Positions 53,990-62,814 of a DNA stretch of 64,000 bases are shown here, piece after piece. The notes under the pieces are model-generated. The model did no database searches and had not been told where the DNA came from. It saw only the letters and a program-made list of their open reading frames with translations. This stretch comes from Paraglaciecola psychrophila 170 (GTDB lineage: Bacteria; Pseudomonadota; Gammaproteobacteria; Enterobacterales; Alteromonadaceae), in assembly GCF_000347635.1 (NCBI RefSeq), contig NC_020514.1, positions 2,914,001 to 2,978,000 of the forward strand. Reading direction: 5' to 3'. Within the stretch, counting starts at the first letter, position 1. Each line of letters begins with the position of its first letter. Both the position numbers and the translations under genes were made by a program.

Positions 53990-54015
53990 AAAAGCCGTCA
54001 TATATGACGGCTTTT
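53990..54015. terminator. Bidirectional terminator between csiV and the TonB receptor gene
   Basis: AAAAGCCGTCATA and its exact complement form a 26-base palindrome with A tracts on one side and T tracts on the other. It is suited to stop both converging transcripts. Confidence 0.9.
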
Positions 54016-54037: not shown

Positions 54038-56674
54038 TTAAAAGATATAGTTCAAACGTGCGTAGTAGTAACCACCTTGCCAATCAACGTTATTGCCTGA
54101 CCAGTATACGGCCCCACAACAATCGTCACTTGAACCGTTAACACCATCCTTTTCGGGGTAAGTATCAAAGATATTTCGAGCACCTGCTGCTAGAGATAAA
54201 CCATCATTAATTTGATAATTCAATTCTAAATCGAACATCACACCTGCATCATACTCCTGTACGACCGTTGCAGAAGAGTTAATAGCATTTTCATATGTGC
54301 CGTAAAAATTAGCACGTATCAGTACACTTAACATATCAAAACTATGCTTAGCAGATAATACGCCACGCCATTTAGGAAGTGCATTTTCTAAATCATACTC
54401 ATCTTCACTGTTCAGGTACAAAGATGCATCTGAATCAATTTCAGTTGAGTTATAGTTTAATGACCCAGTTAAAACGGTGTCATCCATAGTATAAGTAGCA
54501 ACAATATCCATACCATTAGTGACAGTATCAAAAGCATTTTGGAAGTAATTTACGCCACCAATAGTATTTGCCCCGTCAACATCTGCCGCAACCAATGCCA
54601 AATATTTATCATAGGCATCACCAGAATCTGGATCCGTTGATACATCAATTGTAGATACCGCATAAAAACGGTCTTCTAGCTCAATGCGATAAAAGTCGAC
54701 AGTAAGGCTTAATGCATCAAAACTACCCGCCATACCTAAACTATAGTTCAAAGATGTTTCAGGTTTTAATGCATCTGCACCAAGAGCCTGACCAACAGAG
54801 CTTAATGCAGGGAAAAGACCGGTAGCCACTGGAAGGCCATCTGGCAATCGAGTAGAAACGTTTGTAGTACCTTGTTGTCCTGGTGTAGGCGCTCTAAAGC
54901 CTGTTCCTACAGAGCCACGTAAATTAACATCATCAGTTAAACTGTATTTGAAGGCGACTTTACCTACTAATTCAGAACCAAAATCAGAGTAATCTTCATA
55001 TCGTAAGGCGCCTTGCAGGAATAACGCATCAGTAACATCGGTACTTAGATCTACATATATTCCTGCCATATCACGGTCGTAAGTCTCTGAATATATGTCA
55101 GAGTATCCAGGGAAGCCGTTAGAGCCTACACCTACTGCGGTATATACGGCATCATCAGAATCAGTACAATCTAAAGTAGAACCTACTGAAATCACTGCTA
55201 AACCGTCAGTGCTAGCTGAACCATCATCATTACAAAAACCATGAGGATCAGGACTTGAATACGCGCCGACATTATAAGAATCTGGGTCACCTTCCACTAG
55301 CTCATAACTTTCTTCCATATAAGTTAAACCAAAGGCTAGTACAACTTCGGTAGAAAATCCCATATCAAAAAACTGAGTAAAGTCAGCTGACAATTGCAAT
55401 TCTTCGTTAATCAAGTCACCAGGGTGAAATTTAGTTGGAGAATCGGGACCCATAGAAGGGTTAATAGTATTTTCCAATGTGTATTCAATTTTATTTGACC
55501 CATAACGCGCACTGAAGTCATACTTCATTTCGTTGGCAAACTCACCTTCCAAGCCACTGACTAATGAGAAATCAGTAATTTCACCAGTAAATCTAGGCGT
55601 AAAACCACCCGGGAATTTTTCAAGAGGTGAATATAGTGAACCGTTTTCTAAGCGAATATCTTCAATGGTACCGTTACCTGGGTAACGATAATAAAAACTA
55701 CCATCACCTTCACTGGCAGAATAGTTACCAAATGCATATAACTTCATGGTATCGCTAAATTCATAGCCTGAGTTGAAGAACAACCGAGTAGCTGAATTAT
55801 TGGGTTGTCCCCAAGGTTGTACTACATCTTCACCACCTAAATTAGCATCAGCTAAACCAGCGATAAATGCTTCCTCAGAATAACCAGATAATGAGGTATC
55901 CAGACCGGTTAAGAAATCGGCACTATTCACATCTACACATGCCCAACTTTCACAGTATTGTTCTCCGCGATTTGTTGAGCTGGTATCAGATATTTCTCCT
56001 GACAGACTAAAGAAACCTTTATCGCCAAGTGCAAAACCAATGTTACCGGTAACAGTGAATTGCTCTCCATCACCTTCATAATATTGCCCCATATCGACTG
56101 ATAATGAACCACCTTCACTGTTGTCTTTCAACTGAAAGTTTATTACCCCAGCGATAGCATCTGAACCATATTGCGCTGCAGCTCCATCACGAAGTACTTC
56201 AACTCCCTTAAGTGCAGAAGAAGGAATAGTCGCAATATCTGCTCCTTGAGTACCTGAACCGCCTATTTGCACTAAAGCGGAACGATGACGTCTTTTTGAG
56301 TTAATCAAAACCAACGTTTTATCGGTTGGCATACCACGTAAGCTAGCTGGTCGTATAAAAGATCCCCCATCCGAAATAGGCTGGCGACCCAAAGAATAAG
56401 ACGGAACCAAGGTTTTTAATATGTCATTAGTATCAGTAAAAGGAACAGCTACTAAGTCATCTTCACTAAATACATCGACAGGTACAGCTGAATCTGCAAT
56501 TGATCTAGGTGCCCCACGAGAGCCTGTAATAATGACTTTTTCAACATTATCTGAGGCGGCATTGTCAGGCGCTGACGATTCTTGTGCCATAACCGACGAC
56601 AAACCAACAGTGCTGATTGCGCAAGACATTAGACCCATTTTAATGGCTTTGCTGAGCTTATTTTGTTTTAACAT
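54038..56674 (-). CDS. TonB-dependent receptor of the amine-oxidation locus
   Basis: The 878-residue protein has a signal peptide (to VMAQ), a TonB box (DNVEKVIITGSR), a plug domain (VLINSKRRHRSALVQIGGSG, VEVLRDGAAAQYGSDAIAGVINFQL) and a long beta-barrel ending YYYARLNYIF with the terminal phenylalanine. The plug signature RDGAAAQYGSDAIAGVINFQL is typical of large TonB receptors of marine bacteria with organic substrates. It lies downstream of the ridA-type gene on the same strand with a 108-base gap, so it may have its own promoter. It probably imports the substrate or a product of the oxidase. Confidence 0.9.
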   Translation of the reverse strand: MLKQNKLSKAIKMGLMSCAISTVGLSSVMAQESSAPDNAASDNVEKVIITGSRGAPRSIADSAVPVDVFSEDDLVAVPFTDTNDILKTLVPSYSLGRQPISDGGSFIRPASLRGMPTDKTLVLINSKRRHRSALVQIGGSGTQGADIATIPSSALKGVEVLRDGAAAQYGSDAIAGVINFQLKDNSEGGSLSVDMGQYYEGDGEQFTVTGNIGFALGDKGFFSLSGEISDTSSTNRGEQYCESWACVDVNSADFLTGLDTSLSGYSEEAFIAGLADANLGGEDVVQPWGQPNNSATRLFFNSGYEFSDTMKLYAFGNYSASEGDGSFYYRYPGNGTIEDIRLENGSLYSPLEKFPGGFTPRFTGEITDFSLVSGLEGEFANEMKYDFSARYGSNKIEYTLENTINPSMGPDSPTKFHPGDLINEELQLSADFTQFFDMGFSTEVVLAFGLTYMEESYELVEGDPDSYNVGAYSSPDPHGFCNDDGSASTDGLAVISVGSTLDCTDSDDAVYTAVGVGSNGFPGYSDIYSETYDRDMAGIYVDLSTDVTDALFLQGALRYEDYSDFGSELVGKVAFKYSLTDDVNLRGSVGTGFRAPTPGQQGTTNVSTRLPDGLPVATGLFPALSSVGQALGADALKPETSLNYSLGMAGSFDALSLTVDFYRIELEDRFYAVSTIDVSTDPDSGDAYDKYLALVAADVDGANTIGGVNYFQNAFDTVTNGMDIVATYTMDDTVLTGSLNYNSTEIDSDASLYLNSEDEYDLENALPKWRGVLSAKHSFDMLSVLIRANFYGTYENAINSSATVVQEYDAGVMFDLELNYQINDGLSLAAGARNIFDTYPEKDGVNGSSDDCCGAVYWSGNNVDWQGGYYYARLNYIF

Positions 56675-56782
56675 GGTTTTCCCCAGTTTTATTATGTGTG
56701 TTCAAATTGATATGACTAGATTTTTTATTGTTTATTATTTTTCCCTACCTAGTTGATAGAGAAAAATGTTTATTTCGAATCG

Positions 56783-57277
56783 TTATTCTGGTTTAGCTAT
56801 GACCATTTCGATTTCGATCAACATATTCGGCCCACCGGCTAAACCCGCGATTTGAAACGCTGAACGTGCAGGTTTATTAGGCTGTTCCTTGGTACCAAAA
56901 TATTTGGTGTAGGCTTTCATAAAACCACCAAAGTCCATTTTTCCATCCATTGCAGGGTCGCCGACTAAGAAGACTTGCATTTTGATTACATCACCAAAAT
57001 CCACGCCCAACTCTTTGAACGAGCCCTCAAAACGTTTAAATACATTTAATGCTTGAGTTTCAGTATCACCGTAGTATTCGCGGCTACCTTTTGTGGCTTC
57101 AGCGTTAACTGGCCCAGGCACCATGCCACTATGAAAAATGAGAGTAGTATCAGGTGTTACTTCAACAGCCCGAGAAATTGGGAACGTACTGTTATTGGGT
57201 AATGCATGGCGAGTAACGTCAGCTAATGCACTAGTGGCAAACATAGCTGTCGCTGCAAATAACATGTGTTTTTTCAT
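56783..57277 (-). CDS. RidA-family protein with a signal peptide (exported)
   Basis: The 164-residue protein starts with MKKHMLFAATAMFATSALA, a cleavable signal, followed by a RidA/YjgF domain. Key segments are AVEVTPDTTLIFHSGMVPGP, TETQALNVFKRFEGSFKELGVDFGDVIKMQVFL and NKPARSAFQIAGL, whose arginine is the conserved catalytic residue. RidA proteins hydrolyse reactive enamines and imines to ketones and ammonia. Most are cytoplasmic; this one is directed to the periplasm, where the neighbouring flavin amine oxidase would release imines. AGGAG precedes the start. It follows the cytochrome gene by 17 bases. Confidence 0.87.
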   Translation of the reverse strand: MKKHMLFAATAMFATSALADVTRHALPNNSTFPISRAVEVTPDTTLIFHSGMVPGPVNAEATKGSREYYGDTETQALNVFKRFEGSFKELGVDFGDVIKMQVFLVGDPAMDGKMDFGGFMKAYTKYFGTKEQPNKPARSAFQIAGLAGGPNMLIEIEMVIAKPE

Positions 57278-57294
57278 AAAAATACTCCTAAAAA

Positions 57295-57906
57295 TTACTT
57301 TAATTGTTGAATATAAGCGGCAACGTTAGCTGCATCTTGTTCCGATGTAACAACAGCACTTGCTGCCTTCATCTGCTGTCCATACGTGTCACTCACCTCT
57401 GCACCACGAAGACCCAGACGAAAATGATTAAGTTGGGTTACTATGTACCAATCGTTTAAACTGCTTAATTTTGGCGCGCCGAGAGTTTCATTACCTACGG
57501 CTTGAGGGCCGTGACAAGCTGCACACGTTTGATAAAGTGCCTTTCCAGCTTGCGCATCGGCATGAATGCTAGAAGTAGGCTTAGCTGAATTTGTTTTAGT
57601 GACCCATTTGGCAATATCGGTAAGTTGTTGGTCAGACAGATTGCTCACCATCTTCATCATTTCACCTCCGGTGGCATCATCAGGATGGGCCCCTCTCATG
57701 CCACTTTTAAATTTTTTCAACTGACGTTCGATATACCATTGAGATAAGCCCGTTAGCCTTGGCGCACCAATATTGACATTGCCTTTTAATTGACTACCGT
57801 GGCAAACGGTACAATATACAAGGCTTTCAGGCGTTATGGCCTCCTCTGCGATAACGCTATAGGAAAGACTAAAAAGTAAGGTGAAAACTGCTGATTTAAC
57901 TAACAT
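57295..57906 (-). CDS. Periplasmic di-haem cytochrome c (c4-type)
   Basis: The ATG at 57904-57906 has a strong GGGGAGG ribosome site six bases upstream. The 203-residue product has a signal peptide (to SVIA) and two haem-binding motifs, CTVCH (32-36) and CAACH (128-132), each followed by a methionine-bearing segment (GGEMMKMVSNL and YGQQMKAASAV). Two repeated class I domains are the layout of cytochrome c4. Its start overlaps the end of the amine oxidase gene by 11 bases, so coupled translation is likely. It is the probable electron acceptor of that enzyme. Confidence 0.92.
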   Translation of the reverse strand: MLVKSAVFTLLFSLSYSVIAEEAITPESLVYCTVCHGSQLKGNVNIGAPRLTGLSQWYIERQLKKFKSGMRGAHPDDATGGEMMKMVSNLSDQQLTDIAKWVTKTNSAKPTSSIHADAQAGKALYQTCAACHGPQAVGNETLGAPKLSSLNDWYIVTQLNHFRLGLRGAEVSDTYGQQMKAASAVVTSEQDAANVAAYIQQLK

Positions 57907-59485
57907 GGCTGGCCTCCCCATGATTGATATTGGCACCTAATAGTTTATTGAGTTGTTGCAGCGCCTGTTCACTTGAGGCTAAAGCACCTTCTTGCCAACC
58001 ACTGTGATGACTGATTTGATCGCCAATCATAAAGTGACGACCTTCTGGCTCTTGTAACAAATGATAATATTTTTCAAAGTCGCCCTCACTCATTTGCATG
58101 CCGCAGCCCATTTGGTGATTCATGCGAGCCCACGGAATGGTGATACCATTTTCAATATATTTGCTATAACCGGGATGGATTTTTTCACCTGAAATCGCAC
58201 CTGCTTTTAAGCGTTCTTGTTGCGACATGGCTTCAAATTTAGCGCTCACTTTCGGATCCCATGTGTAGGCTCCCAAAAGTATTCCTTTTTGTGCATGTAT
58301 ATCGTGTGACGGATACCACAGCTGGTTAATTGGATCAGAGGTATAACTGATACCGCCGAAGATACCGTCTCGTTCCCAAAAGCGTTCTTTCATTTGATAA
58401 GCAATTTTGAACAAATGTCCGCGCTTAATACTGTCCAGTCCTGATTGATACATTGCTGAGAAGTTGTTCTCAATACCAGCCATAAAATATGCAGGAATGT
58501 TATTGAAGCAATAATCGGCTTGCACTGTATGGAACTTGCCTCCCTGCTCATAAGTCACTTCAACGCCTTTGTCTCGATTATAAATCTTCTTAACTTGAGC
58601 ATTTAATACCGGGGGAGTTTTCAAATATTTCAAAAAGCCCTTAACAACAGCATCCATACCACCTATGGGCTCCATTAAAGGTTCACACCAGTCATACAGT
58701 TCAGCGCCTAACAGACCGCCGTACCAGAAACTGCTATCAAGCATCTCTTTTAATTCGATGGGTGCATGGGGTTTGGGGAAATCCAACATGCGATCAGTAG
58801 TTGAACCAGCTCTGTTGCTACCGATGTATTTTCCATTTTCTGTCAAGTCACCAAAGGTCTGAGAAAATTTCATTAACTTACTAACATCTTCTTCACTAAG
58901 AAGTTGATCAAACTGGTTTGAATCAGCAGACTTCCACAACAATTCAGACATCAATCCACGAACATCGGTATGGTATTCAATAATGCGTTTAGGTTTACCG
59001 CCTAATGACTTGTCATCATGGAAATATGCCATCTTGCTACTATTTGCTTTGATCTGTAATGGCACATTGAGTGCTCTGCAATAGTGCAATAAACGTCTAT
59101 GATGTCCTGGAATACGTGCTGGACCGCAGTTAAAAAATAAATTGTCTTGTTGATCAAAGTTGCAAATTTGTGGGTTACCCATCTCATCGATTTTATCACC
59201 GTTGCGAACAGTTAGATTACGTCCTCCCGGTCGAAAAGAGGCTTCTAAAATGGTGCAGTCAAAGCCTGCTCGTTCGAGCTCTAATGCAGTGGATAATCCA
59301 GCGATACCAGCACCCAAAATTAGGGCCGTTGGTTTATTACCTTTTGACGCAGGTTTAACCTTAACTGGGCCAGAGTAACGATCATCGGGCATCAACCCCA
59401 TAGCTAGACTGGTTTTGAGTAACGCTGAGGAACCACCTGCGGCTCCAACATAAGATAAAAACTGTCTTCTTGTAATATTCAACAT
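57896..59485 (-). CDS. Tat-exported flavin monoamine oxidase family enzyme
   Basis: The 529-residue protein starts with a twin-arginine signal (NITRRQFLSYVGAAGGSSAL). The FAD-binding GAGIAG is at residues 58-63 with the ribose-binding glutamate at 81 (ILEASFRPGGRN). The substrate domain follows (FWYGGLLGAELYDWCEPLMEPIGGMDAVV), and the C-terminal FAD segment reads FMIGDQISHHSGWQEGALASSEQAL. It is an amine oxidase or dehydrogenase acting in the periplasm. The nearest analogue in organisation is a flavin amine oxidase that uses cytochrome c instead of O2, such as nicotine oxidoreductase NicA2 with its cytochrome. The substrate is unknown. It is the first gene of the locus. Confidence 0.9.
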   Translation of the reverse strand: MLNITRRQFLSYVGAAGGSSALLKTSLAMGLMPDDRYSGPVKVKPASKGNKPTALILGAGIAGLSTALELERAGFDCTILEASFRPGGRNLTVRNGDKIDEMGNPQICNFDQQDNLFFNCGPARIPGHHRRLLHYCRALNVPLQIKANSSKMAYFHDDKSLGGKPKRIIEYHTDVRGLMSELLWKSADSNQFDQLLSEEDVSKLMKFSQTFGDLTENGKYIGSNRAGSTTDRMLDFPKPHAPIELKEMLDSSFWYGGLLGAELYDWCEPLMEPIGGMDAVVKGFLKYLKTPPVLNAQVKKIYNRDKGVEVTYEQGGKFHTVQADYCFNNIPAYFMAGIENNFSAMYQSGLDSIKRGHLFKIAYQMKERFWERDGIFGGISYTSDPINQLWYPSHDIHAQKGILLGAYTWDPKVSAKFEAMSQQERLKAGAISGEKIHPGYSKYIENGITIPWARMNHQMGCGMQMSEGDFEKYYHLLQEPEGRHFMIGDQISHHSGWQEGALASSEQALQQLNKLLGANINHGEASHVS

Positions 59486-59825
59486 AATTATTCTAACTAC
59501 ACCCCCGAATTAAATCGGTACGACACGTGAAAAATCAGAATTTCATGCTAGCGATTCTTAGGCTTAGGTAGAACGCAATATAATATTGTGCACCCCCCTA
59601 CTTTTTATATACCCCCCGATTTTCATTGGCCAAGGAGTCATAACATTTATCAAAAATAAACTTTTATTTGGGTTTTGAGTAAAATCTAGCAAAACAATTA
59701 AATTCCCTCGAAAATACAAATGGCATTAAATTTGCTACGTTCAGGTATACAAAATTATGACCAACAAAATTCTTAGGTTTAACAAAGAAATTAGAGACGT
59801 TTTTCCATTTTATTTAGGGTAATTG
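59486..59825. promoter_or_regulatory. Divergent control region of the amine-oxidation locus
   Basis: The 340 bases between the amine oxidase and LysR-type genes must carry both promoters. Two runs of C (near 59586-59592 and 59613-59619) flank a TTTTTATATA stretch. A specific T-N11-A operator could not be chosen with confidence. Confidence 0.45.
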
Positions 59826-60824
59826 ATGAATTCGAAACAGTTACAGTATTTTTTAGCTACTGCAGAGCAAGGTAGTATTGCAGCCGCGGCTAAACATTTA
59901 GACGTCGCGCAACCGGCTATAAGTTTGCAACTCACTAATTTAGAGCATGAGCTGAAAATAAAACTGCTAGAGAGAGATTTTCGTGGGGTTAAATTAACTG
60001 ATGCTGGTAATCGTTTTGAACAGCATGCTCGTATTATTATGGAGAAAATACAAGCAGCCAAAACAGACTTAATTGGTGAACAAGCAGAATGTAAAGGCAA
60101 AGTAGTTGTTGGCCTTAACCAATCAAGTTGTAACGTGTTATCAGTTGCCTTACTAAATGAGTTAGAGCATAGATTTACTGACATCGAATTAAGCTTTAAA
60201 ATAGGCCCATTTGATATGATTGAAAACTGGTTAGCTGAAGACCAAATAGATATTGCAGTGTGTCACAAACCCATCACGAAAAATGGTATTTCAGACGCGC
60301 TCCCACTTATTCGTGAAGATATAAATTTATATATCTCTCCTCATCCACAAAACCCTTCTTACAGCGAACTTGCAATGCACTCTTCGATTCCATTTGTAGA
60401 GTTACAATATTACGATATTTTTCTGCCAGATAAACAAGATACGTTAACTATTATGTTAACAAAACAAGCAAACAAGTCTGGTATCACCCTTAAATCCAAG
60501 GCCGCTTTTGGTCAATTAATGACAACCTTACATTATGTTACGCAAGGCTTAGGCTTGGTGATTTGCCCTTCATCAGCAGTGTTTCATTTAGAATCATGTA
60601 AACAATTGAGGGTGATTAACATCATCCAACCTAGTTTACAGCGTGATGTTTTTTTACAGCTCGCTCACAAAAAACAACATGAGCCAGCTGCAATGGCTGT
60701 TTTTGAACTGCTTCGAGAAATCACCGCCCTCTCACATGATAATAAAAATTGGCGCGGCACATTACTAGATAGAAAATATGCCATTCCGTCAGTCAACAAT
60801 ATTGAGACATTGGTTACCGGTTAA
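59826..60824 (+). CDS. LysR-family transcription regulator
   Basis: The start is the ATG at 59826, preceded by AGGG. The helix-turn-helix is at residues 3-60 (LQYFLATAEQGSIAAAAKHLDVAQPAISLQLTNLEHEL), followed by the two-lobed co-inducer domain (KVVVGLNQSSCNVLSVALL, DIAVCHKPIT). The gene diverges from the amine oxidase operon, the usual arrangement for a LysR activator of its neighbour. The co-inducer may be the amine substrate or its oxidised product. It is 332 residues, normal for the family. Confidence 0.9.
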   Translation: MNSKQLQYFLATAEQGSIAAAAKHLDVAQPAISLQLTNLEHELKIKLLERDFRGVKLTDAGNRFEQHARIIMEKIQAAKTDLIGEQAECKGKVVVGLNQSSCNVLSVALLNELEHRFTDIELSFKIGPFDMIENWLAEDQIDIAVCHKPITKNGISDALPLIREDINLYISPHPQNPSYSELAMHSSIPFVELQYYDIFLPDKQDTLTIMLTKQANKSGITLKSKAAFGQLMTTLHYVTQGLGLVICPSSAVFHLESCKQLRVINIIQPSLQRDVFLQLAHKKQHEPAAMAVFELLREITALSHDNKNWRGTLLDRKYAIPSVNNIETLVTG

Positions 60825-60837
60825 TCCCTGTGCTCTC

Positions 60838-61164
60838 TTAACGCAGTAGTTCCAGAGCATCGGCACCTGGCATGCCTATTTGTATGCCAAGTTTGATTGC
60901 TTCTTCAGACACGGCCAATACAGGCTTATATAACATATCGTCATATTGATTGACGCCAGAAACAATGGCACACGCTTCTCCAGTTTTGTCACAAGTGGTC
61001 ACATTAAGGTAGCCACAAGCTAACAATCCCTTTTCACCCTGAATTGTCAACAAAGGCAGTTTTAATTCTATTCTGTCTTTTTTTAAGTTGCCCCAATTAA
61101 ACGTGTCTGCATATAAGTTAGGTACAAATAACCAAAATAAAACCAACCAATTAAAATTTTTCAT
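60838..61164 (-). CDS. Secreted YunC-like (DUF1805) protein
   Basis: The 108-residue protein matches B. subtilis YunC/DUF1805: IELKLPLLTIQGEKGLLACGYLNVTTC and the ending PVLAVSEEAIKLGIQIGMPGADALELL. Unlike YunC, it starts with a signal peptide (NWLVLFWLFVPNLYA) and so should act in the periplasm. It has three cysteines that could form disulfides after export. The gene converges on the LysR gene, 14 bases from its stop. The function of the family is unknown. Confidence 0.7.
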   Translation of the reverse strand: MKNFNWLVLFWLFVPNLYADTFNWGNLKKDRIELKLPLLTIQGEKGLLACGYLNVTTCDKTGEACAIVSGVNQYDDMLYKPVLAVSEEAIKLGIQIGMPGADALELLR

Positions 61165-61390: not shown

Positions 61391-62814
61391 TTACAACGTA
61401 AAGTAACTTACACCAGTAATAACGAACGCTAAGAATATGTTCAGTGCAAAGCCTTCCCTAGCCATAGTTTGAATACTAAATTTGTCCATCCCATATACGA
61501 TGGCATTAGGTGCTGTTGCTACAGGCAACATAAAAGCACAGCTTGCACTAATGGCGGCTGGCATCATCATCAATGCGGGATCAATCCCAGCTGCAACACC
61601 TGCAGCGGCGAGAATTGGCATCAATAAGGTGGCAGTAGCCGTATTTGAAGTAATTTCAGTTAAAAAAGTCACAAACAAACAAATACACAGGATTAACAAA
61701 GGTACAGGTAAGTCAGATAACCCCGTCAAGCCATCCCCCATTAAGGCACTTAACCCTGAAGCAGAAAACGCTTTTGCAATACAAATACCCCCTGCAAATA
61801 ACAACAACATGCCCCATGGAATCGACACTGCAGTATCCCAATCAAGTAATTTGTCTGACTTTGGTTTATTGATAACTTCACCAAATTTTGTGTCTTTTGG
61901 GCAGGCCTCTAATGCTTTCTCTTTGTTACCGCTGGGGATAAGAAACATTAATACCACGCCTGCCAAAGCAATACTGCTGTCGCCAATACTTGGCATATTT
62001 AACCATACTGTCCAATAAGGTCGAAACATCCAAGCTAACGCTACCAACACAAATGTTATCAACACCCGCTTTTCAGCAGGTTGCCAAGCCCCAGATTTAG
62101 GTAAAATATACTCTTGAGTACTTTCTAGATTACGGGTTAACCACCAAGCAATCACCGGAATGCCAATCACCACTATAGGTACACCAGTTTTCATCCACTC
62201 GAGGAAACTGATTTCTTTGCCTTGTGTTTCAAGGTAAACACTCATAAAAATAATGTTCGGAGGGGTGCCTACAGGCGTACCCACTCCGCCTAAACTAGCT
62301 GCGTAAGCAATGCCCAGTAACATAGCAATAGTCAGCTTAGGATCTTTTACATGTTGTAATACTGCCAGCGTGATGGGCAATAACATCAAGGTAGTGGCTG
62401 AATTAGAAATCCACATACTTAGAATAGCGGCAGTCAACATAAAGCCAAACACCAACCGTTTAGCACTTTTACCGCCAGTGAGATTAACCAAGTAAAAAGC
62501 CAATCGACTATGCACATTAGACTTTTCCAATGCCTTTGAAAGCATAAACGCGCCCATCAACAATAAAATAACGTGGCTGCCCAGCGCCGAGGCAGACTCT
62601 TTATGGGTTAATACCCCCGCCATAGGAAAACCGAAAAAGGAATAAGCGAGGTAACAGGAATAGGCAGTGCTTCAGTTACCCATAACATGGCAGTAAATAG
62701 CGTAATAGAGGCTGTAGAGGCAATCAAATGTGGCTGACCAACAGCTACTAGCCCAAAATACAGCACAGTTGCACTCATAGCCGAGATTAAAATTAGTTTG
62801 TTGTTAGTTTGCAT
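61391..62814 (-). pseudogene. DASS-family sodium/dicarboxylate permease with a one-base frameshift
   Basis: The N-terminal 68 codons (62608-62814; ATVLYFGLVAVG to VTSLIPFSVF) and the main part (61391-62623; FPMAGVLTHKESASALGSHVI onward) are in different frames. One extra C beside the GG at 62625-62626 (plus strand) would give TSLIPFSVFPMAGV and one protein of about 475 residues. It has the SLC13 family signatures SNSATTLMLLPITLAVL and TEITSNTATATLLMPIL, plus about twelve transmembrane segments. Such carriers import C4-dicarboxylates or sulfate with sodium. It overlaps nagZ by 11 bases at its start. Confidence 0.8.

Follow-up and report, generated by a model that had tools for sequence, protein, structure and literature searches.

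A predicted periplasmic respiratory L-amino-acid deaminase operon with an exported Rid3-type protein in Paraglaciecola psychrophila 170

The operon and its proposed function

The window analysed here is a 64,000-nucleotide stretch of the Paraglaciecola psychrophila 170 chromosome (positions 2914001-2978000 of a 5.41-Mb single-contig genome). It carries, in a row on the minus strand, genes for a flavoenzyme with a twin-arginine (Tat) export motif, a di-haem cytochrome c, a Rid protein with a predicted signal sequence and a TonB-dependent receptor; a LysR-type regulator gene is divergent. Judged from its sequence, the operon probably encodes a periplasmic respiratory L-amino-acid deaminase. Observed directly were the gene set, the export motifs, the tendency of the genes to stay linked, and a cytochrome type that varies with the type of enzyme; the steps that follow are proposed. 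An L-amino acid would enter the periplasm, and the TonB-dependent receptor might be its route. The Tat-exported flavoenzyme, of the L-amino-acid-oxidase (LAAO) type, would take the alpha-carbon hydride, as its fold and conserved residues suggest, yielding an imino acid and reduced flavin adenine dinucleotide (FADH2). FADH2 would be reoxidised in one-electron steps through the co-encoded c4-like di-haem cytochrome, which could feed a cbb3 oxidase, so that little H2O2 would be made. The exported Rid3 protein, going by published Rid3 biochemistry, would act on the imino acid while still in the periplasm, converting it by hydrolysis into ammonia and a keto acid before it can react with other molecules, and the divergent LysR protein would control the unit. 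The five genes are:

57896-59485, minus strand: FAD amine-oxidase-family enzyme, predicted L-amino-acid dehydrogenase (PF01593; twin-arginine start TRRQFLSYVGAAGGSSALLK)
57295-57906, minus strand: di-haem c4-like cytochrome c, predicted acceptor for the enzyme (PF00034, two stretches; Sec-type N-terminus by reading)
56783-57277, minus strand: predicted exported Rid3-type imine deaminase, 164 aa (PF01042; signal from motif and hydropathy)
54038-56674, minus strand: TonB-dependent outer-membrane receptor, 878 aa (PF07715 plug, PF00593 barrel)
59823-60824, plus strand: LysR-type regulator, divergent, which probably controls the operon (PF00126, PF03466)

All five had been named and placed in the original prediction, made from the letters of the window, and all five were confirmed. 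Its 11-base overlap of the oxidase and cytochrome genes lies at 57896-57906, if the cytochrome begins with its ATG; the GTG codon at 57936 is an alternative start, likewise open.

Of a wider proposal we are only half persuaded: that at least two large lineages of the LAAO family, with di-haem and mono-haem partners respectively, are respiratory periplasmic L-amino-acid dehydrogenases and not O2-using enzymes, and that the Rid3 subfamily essentially supplies their third, exported partner, hydrolysing imino acids outside the inner membrane. If this is true, many enzymes in a family whose name and uses are those of H2O2-producing oxidases would be linked to respiration, and a Rid subfamily would gain a place and a partner. 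Marine bacteria could then obtain both ammonia and keto acids from amino acids with no prior cytosolic import, and gene order would tell clearly which of the LAAO-like enzymes act as dehydrogenases.

Association of the three core genes

The exported oxidase-cytochrome-Rid unit of the original prediction is borne out in that its parts tend to be inherited together. Among 118 genomes of the family, searched with cut-offs of E up to 1e-60 for the oxidase and up to 1e-20 for Rid, the oxidase occurred in 20 and Rid in 18, with both in 18 and neither in 98 (hypergeometric 2e-19, kinship ignored). The two genes were adjacent in 17 of these 18 genomes, the window's own included; in G015 Rid lies elsewhere (L044). 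Given this co-occurrence and adjacency, the oxidase/Rid linkage is not due to chance. Outside the window there were 20 family loci in 19 genomes: 15 had Rid with a di-haem cytochrome, one Rid with a mono-haem cytochrome, one a di-haem cytochrome only, one a mono-haem cytochrome only, and two neither. Cytochrome and Rid were thus both beside the enzyme in 16/20 loci. The full arrangement, with LysR followed by oxidase, cytochrome, Rid and receptor, recurred in 9 of the 20; it was also seen in 7 of 80 named contigs, a set that overlaps with the family loci.

The named contigs are the best 80 of 585, with a bias toward near kin, and 45 of them had Rid with a di-haem and two Rid with a mono-haem cytochrome. 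A class sample of 369 genomes was searched to 1e-40 for the enzyme, with at most four candidates scored per genome, and to 1e-15 for Rid. Each was found in 6 genomes and both in 5, own included; G259 has only Rid, flanked by a primase gene and by peptidase genes, and G356 only the enzyme. In a phylum sample of 398 genomes, 27 had matches (31 matches at 30 loci, the window and some earlier loci among them), which divided into Rid with di-haem (4), Rid with mono-haem (7), Rid only (8), mono-haem only (4) and neither (7). Neighbourhoods were read from frame segments; open reading frame (ORF) listings missed cytochromes lying under opposite ORFs or long GC-rich frames. Cytochrome counts from frame segments are lower bounds, and an extra look downstream of the enzyme added cases, namely a mono-haem frame at 8 of the 15 phylum loci, and a di-haem frame in 6 of the named contigs, first counted as lacking a cytochrome. 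The distances of the enzyme correlated with those of the cytochrome (r 0.94) and of Rid (r 0.94) over 17 loci, values that carry little weight, species kinship being uncorrected.

In six gammaproteobacterial contigs the cytochrome gene lies in a divergent operon, in five of them together with Rid. At L096, L104, L109, L121 and L130 the oxidase is divergent from a receptor-cytochrome-Rid operon, the unit being kept as two transcripts; the L096 operon is headed by a Trans_reg_C-type regulator.

Some loci have additional genes. A frame of 459-471 aa lies between the di-haem cytochrome and Rid at L098, L099, L111, L115, L119, L120 and L124-L129, and a frame of 620-646 aa then follows at L098, L099, L115, L119, L120 and L124. 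Families were checked for L098, where the first frame is a sodium:dicarboxylate-type symporter (PF00375) and the second an amidase (PF01425). At L069, subunits of a xanthine-dehydrogenase/aldehyde-oxidase-like molybdoenzyme and a cytochrome b561-like gene lie 5' of the oxidase, and frames of similar sizes occupy this position at L070-L072 and L077. Two cyanobacterial loci, L137 and L139, have oxidase-Rid pairs with no cytochrome found; L137 has a sodium:solute symporter gene upstream and, by reading, a similar frame downstream.

Cytochrome type and the enzyme tree

A tree of 121 enzyme rows was built with a quick search after 13 rows with identical cores had been dropped. One block of 85 rows includes the window, a second holds 20, and the remaining 16 rows form two groups. 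With refined labels, the 85-row block held 76 di-haem rows (six of them with the cytochrome in a divergent operon), two mono-haem rows, two with none and five unclear. The second block was mono-haem in 20/20 rows, and the other 16 rows comprised 15 with none and one unclear. Cytochrome state needed 5 changes on this tree, as against 36.1 in shuffles, and 0 of 200 shuffles were as low. Enzyme and cytochrome type co-vary, the pattern to be expected were every enzyme lineage tied to an acceptor type of its own.

With the labels as they stood before refinement, 16 changes were needed. Of the rows first labelled none, refinement made 8 mono-haem and 6 di-haem, and another 6 became di-haem for a divergent operon within 5.5 kb; two became unclear (L088, where a cytochrome lies 3.8 kb off, and L112, which is truncated), in addition to four already unclear. 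It was done with the tree in view, and all choices favoured the respiratory proposal; the result is strong, not blind. Near copies among the rows make some clustering expected. Rid presence fits the tree less closely, with 13 changes and with 64, 13 and 9 Rid-bearing rows in the three sets.

The flavoenzyme

The oxidase begins MLNITRRQFLSYVGAAGGSSALLK, with the Tat motif TRRQFL at its start; R6-R7 are invariant in 19/19 rows, the Tat signal being judged by motif only. Its closest named relatives, among the best 80 of 585, are from Paraglaciecola (86%). By sequence and by fold, the nearest relative among the matches listed is the R. opacus LAAO (2jae), with 30% identity in the structural alignment. 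The original prediction had likened the enzyme to NicA2. As kinship this was not borne out, with the LAAO far ahead and no NicA2-named row among the best 60 of 197 sequence matches or the 50 listed fold matches, an absence that does not by itself decide; NicA2 itself was not compared.

R124 and Y407 of the window oxidase align with an Arg and a Tyr of 2jae and are invariant in 19/19 rows, and a Lys and a Trp aligned with 2jae are likewise invariant. We take the Arg and Tyr to be the clamp for the substrate carboxylate, and the 2jae residues to be equivalent to Arg90, Tyr372 and Lys326 of the snake LAAO. If they have this role, their invariance points to an L-amino acid in place of the prediction's unknown amine. 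Fold, sequence and clamp residues all fit, and we assign the predicted enzyme to the LAAO family, R. opacus type. Roles for the three snake residues have been described (PMC6149928, PMC7052187). No paper on the active-site residues of the R. opacus enzyme was found in the open-licence literature.

The Rid protein and its predicted export

The Rid protein begins MKKHMLFAATAMFATSALA followed, after the predicted cleavage, by DV, a Sec-type signal by reading. Its best PDB matches are PFL1385 (105.7 bits) and PSPTO3006 (104.5 bits), the next chain scoring 26.1; in a profile search the same two scored 153 and 170, the next 53. R138 is invariant in 16/16 rows and aligns with the RidA-type Arg of 1qah. 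I34, in a PIS motif, is also invariant in 16/16, and was assigned to the Tyr site by reading, not by an aligned column. To our knowledge, Rid3 proteins have so far been studied as purified proteins or when expressed in a cytosolic test. PFL_1385 and PSPTO_3006 are Rid3 proteins (PMC5619798), and the Rid3 criterion is retention of the catalytic Arg with replacement of the active-site Tyr by Ile (PMC4433059). Both the nearest members and the Arg/Ile pattern place the window protein in the Rid3 subfamily by prediction. The two proteins reduce semicarbazone formation from the imines of L-Leu, Gln, Phe, Met and His (PMC5619798), and Rid3 genes sometimes cluster with FAD amine oxidase genes (PMC4433059, 2015). 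The PFL1385 chain itself has a signal-like start in alignments with the window Rid; the words 'signal', 'periplasm' and 'export' are absent from the main text of PMC5619798, and 'periplasm' from that of PMC4433059.

Export was called by motif, hydropathy and reading. An initial hydropathy threshold of 1.8 passed 63 of 98 rows, with 22 lacking a landmark, and failed the window's own Rid (1.52); the threshold used was 1.5. At this value 70 of 83 distinct linked Rids passed, all 70 resembling signals or anchors, and nine more have a signal, lipobox or anchor by eye (L076, L081, L097, L100, L117, L123, L134, L151, L164). L165 and L166 are without a signal by eye, and L091 and L126 are not resolvable. 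Most signals are Sec-type; others are lipobox-like (e.g., L050, L055, L152, L154) or membrane anchors (L094, L097, L100, L103). The original prediction had considered a periplasmic RidA unusual. Exported Rid as a rarity was rejected once the linked Rids had been listed, signals being the rule for this enzyme's partners. The window's own genome has four other PF01042 genes, none with an N-terminal signal by reading; three fall below 1.5 and one is not scorable.

The near kin L165 and L166 have Rids that are close to PSPTO_3006, by reading, and lack a signal; no cytochrome was found at either, and Glu, Lys and Asp stand in the enzyme's Tat core. Tat core and Rid signal are both kept at L163, of the same genus group. 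L165 and L166 seem to represent one joint loss of export, the partners changing compartment together.

The cytochrome as probable electron acceptor

The cytochrome begins MLVKSAVFTLLFSLSYSVIA and carries CxxCH twice, at residues 32 and 128; its best PDB matches are the cytochrome c4 structures 6q2u and 1etp. In the 25 enzymes tested in PMC12224317, a Tat signal with an adjacent cytochrome c predicted well which dehydrogenases use a cytochrome. The original prediction's NicA2-like pairing of a Tat flavoenzyme with a neighbouring cytochrome c fits that predictor. In Gluconacetobacter, mutants in cytochrome-c maturation had indole-3-acetic acid (IAA) at 5% of normal (PMC5053998, from Lee 2004), which fits a cytochrome as electron acceptor. 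Gene order, the tree and PMC12224317 lead us to infer that the window cytochrome takes the enzyme's electrons. The genome encodes CcoN of a cbb3 oxidase, with a score over the cut-off, and a 4-hydroxyphenylpyruvate dioxygenase; it could respire the electrons via cbb3 and use an aromatic keto acid, neither gene being specific.

Competing explanations and published systems

The enzyme might instead be a periplasmic, O2-using and H2O2-making L-amino-acid oxidase, for example antibacterial like LodA-type enzymes, with the cytochrome serving otherwise, such as in peroxide removal. Such a role would suit the LAAO kinship and the part of the enzyme tree without a nearby cytochrome, and H2O2-making amino-acid oxidases have been described from marine Pseudoalteromonas (PMC4699246). 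LodA-type enzymes, however, are quinoproteins of a different family, and the tracking of enzyme by cytochrome type across the tree, together with the overlap of the two genes, makes an H2O2-making oxidase unlikely.

A 2016 paper (PMC5053998) already describes this trio of genes and suggests that the oxidase is assisted by the cytochrome and by Rid, which also tells against the original prediction's 'unusual'. In the lao-cccA-ridA cluster of Gluconacetobacter diazotrophicus (GDI2456-2454), a Tat LAAO, a cytochrome c and a Rid are adjacent, just as the window genes are adjacent on one strand; that paper reports a comparable gene order in Caulobacter and Xanthomonas. GDI2456 is 34% identical to the R. 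opacus LAAO as published, compared with 30% for the window enzyme in the structural alignment. The available part of the account mentions neither a TonB receptor nor a divergent LysR gene, both present in the window. Gluconacetobacter loses IAA when lao is disrupted (PMC5053998), and Chlamydomonas LAO1 and RIDA have been linked to IAA (PMC10805672). The same core could thus serve signalling toward algae, from L-tryptophan through indole-3-pyruvate to auxin. The best NCBIfam match of the L098 amidase is an indoleacetamide hydrolase, although its 372 bits fall short of the cut-off, 532. The IAA role was demonstrated for lao-cccA-ridA and not for the window operon, among whose genes no indole-pyruvate decarboxylation gene was seen, and the likeness to GDI2456 is taken from a published description; we regard an auxin function as improbable. 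Chlamydomonas LAO1 with LAO2/RIDA resembles the window in pairing an extracellular L-amino-acid oxidase with a Rid partner. Unlike the window enzyme, LAO1 is eukaryotic and described as H2O2-producing, with no cytochrome named in the cluster in the available part of PMC10805672.

NicA2, Pnao and the enzymes of clades 1-3 have a Tat signal and an adjacent cytochrome c with a Sec signal, as in the window, and clade 1 shares with the window a c4-type di-haem cytochrome as partner (PMC12224317). Those enzymes were gathered by similarity to NicA2, whereas the window enzyme is nearest to L-amino-acid oxidases; 'L-amino acid' and 'Rid' are absent from the main text of that paper. The original prediction's NicA2-type dehydrogenase of a non-amino-acid amine shares its Tat signal and adjacent cytochrome c with nicA2-cycN-pnao (PMC12224317), but is very improbable given the LAAO kinship and the invariant carboxylate clamp.

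Several observations weigh against a respiratory deaminase. The unit is divisible: 9 of the 80 named contigs had Rid only, 9 a di-haem cytochrome only and 15 neither, with the qualification that 10 of the 80 stop within 1.3 kb downstream and that 9 of these were counted as without one or both partners. At L163, a Tat enzyme and an exported Rid occur with no cytochrome found. Receptor and LysR gene are missing or otherwise placed in many relatives. The nearest solved relative, the R. opacus LAAO, is described as an oxidase. The lysine on the N5 side of the flavin, which the window enzyme has, does not decide between dehydrogenase and oxidase because it is near-universal in both (PMC12224317). 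Finally, clade 1 enzymes with c4-type cytochromes are slow with O2 and only modest with their own cytochrome in solution (PMC12224317).

In sum, the core is known, and what appears to be new, relative to the open-licence literature, is that the LAAO family divides according to the type of cytochrome, that LAAO-linked Rids are generally exported, and that receptor and LysR genes join the core; none of the three was found there, the search for Rid3 export having been too loose to prove absence.

Receptor, regulator and flanking sequences

The TonB-dependent receptor has only remote siderophore- and B12-receptor kin among solved receptors. A receptor gene lies 3' of Rid in 9/20 family loci, and a same-strand receptor is nearby in 14/20, as it is in 22/80 named contigs. 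Four of the 14 lie upstream of the oxidase, and three of these four score low (639-669 vs 1559-1792). Because position and type vary, and because 6/20 family loci have no same-strand receptor nearby, the receptor as substrate importer stays a guess. LysR is divergent in 10/20 family loci.

Two further features flank the operon genes:

59532-59613, minus strand: conserved block 5' of the oxidase gene that may contain its promoter and a LysR site (10 aligned upstream regions)
53990-54015, no strand assigned: perfect inverted repeat of 13+13 bp that may serve as a shared terminator (read from sequence)

The block has invariant and near-invariant columns in the 10 upstream regions, some of which come from near-identical kin. 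A sigma-70 scan gave nothing above shuffles (9 sites vs 15.4). The inverted repeat sits between the operon and a convergent CsiV gene and is not among the terminators listed by the promoter/terminator scan, which for terminators was uninformative (5 vs 4.4 in shuffles).

Beyond the LysR gene, a DASS-family transporter frame (61391-62623, 410 aa) is shorter than its relatives (458-475 aa), and its family-model match begins at position 50; it perhaps has a wrong start or is an interrupted gene. A small DUF1805 protein with a signal-like start is encoded at 60838-61164, adjoining the LysR gene, as it does at L033, L034, L035 and L040.

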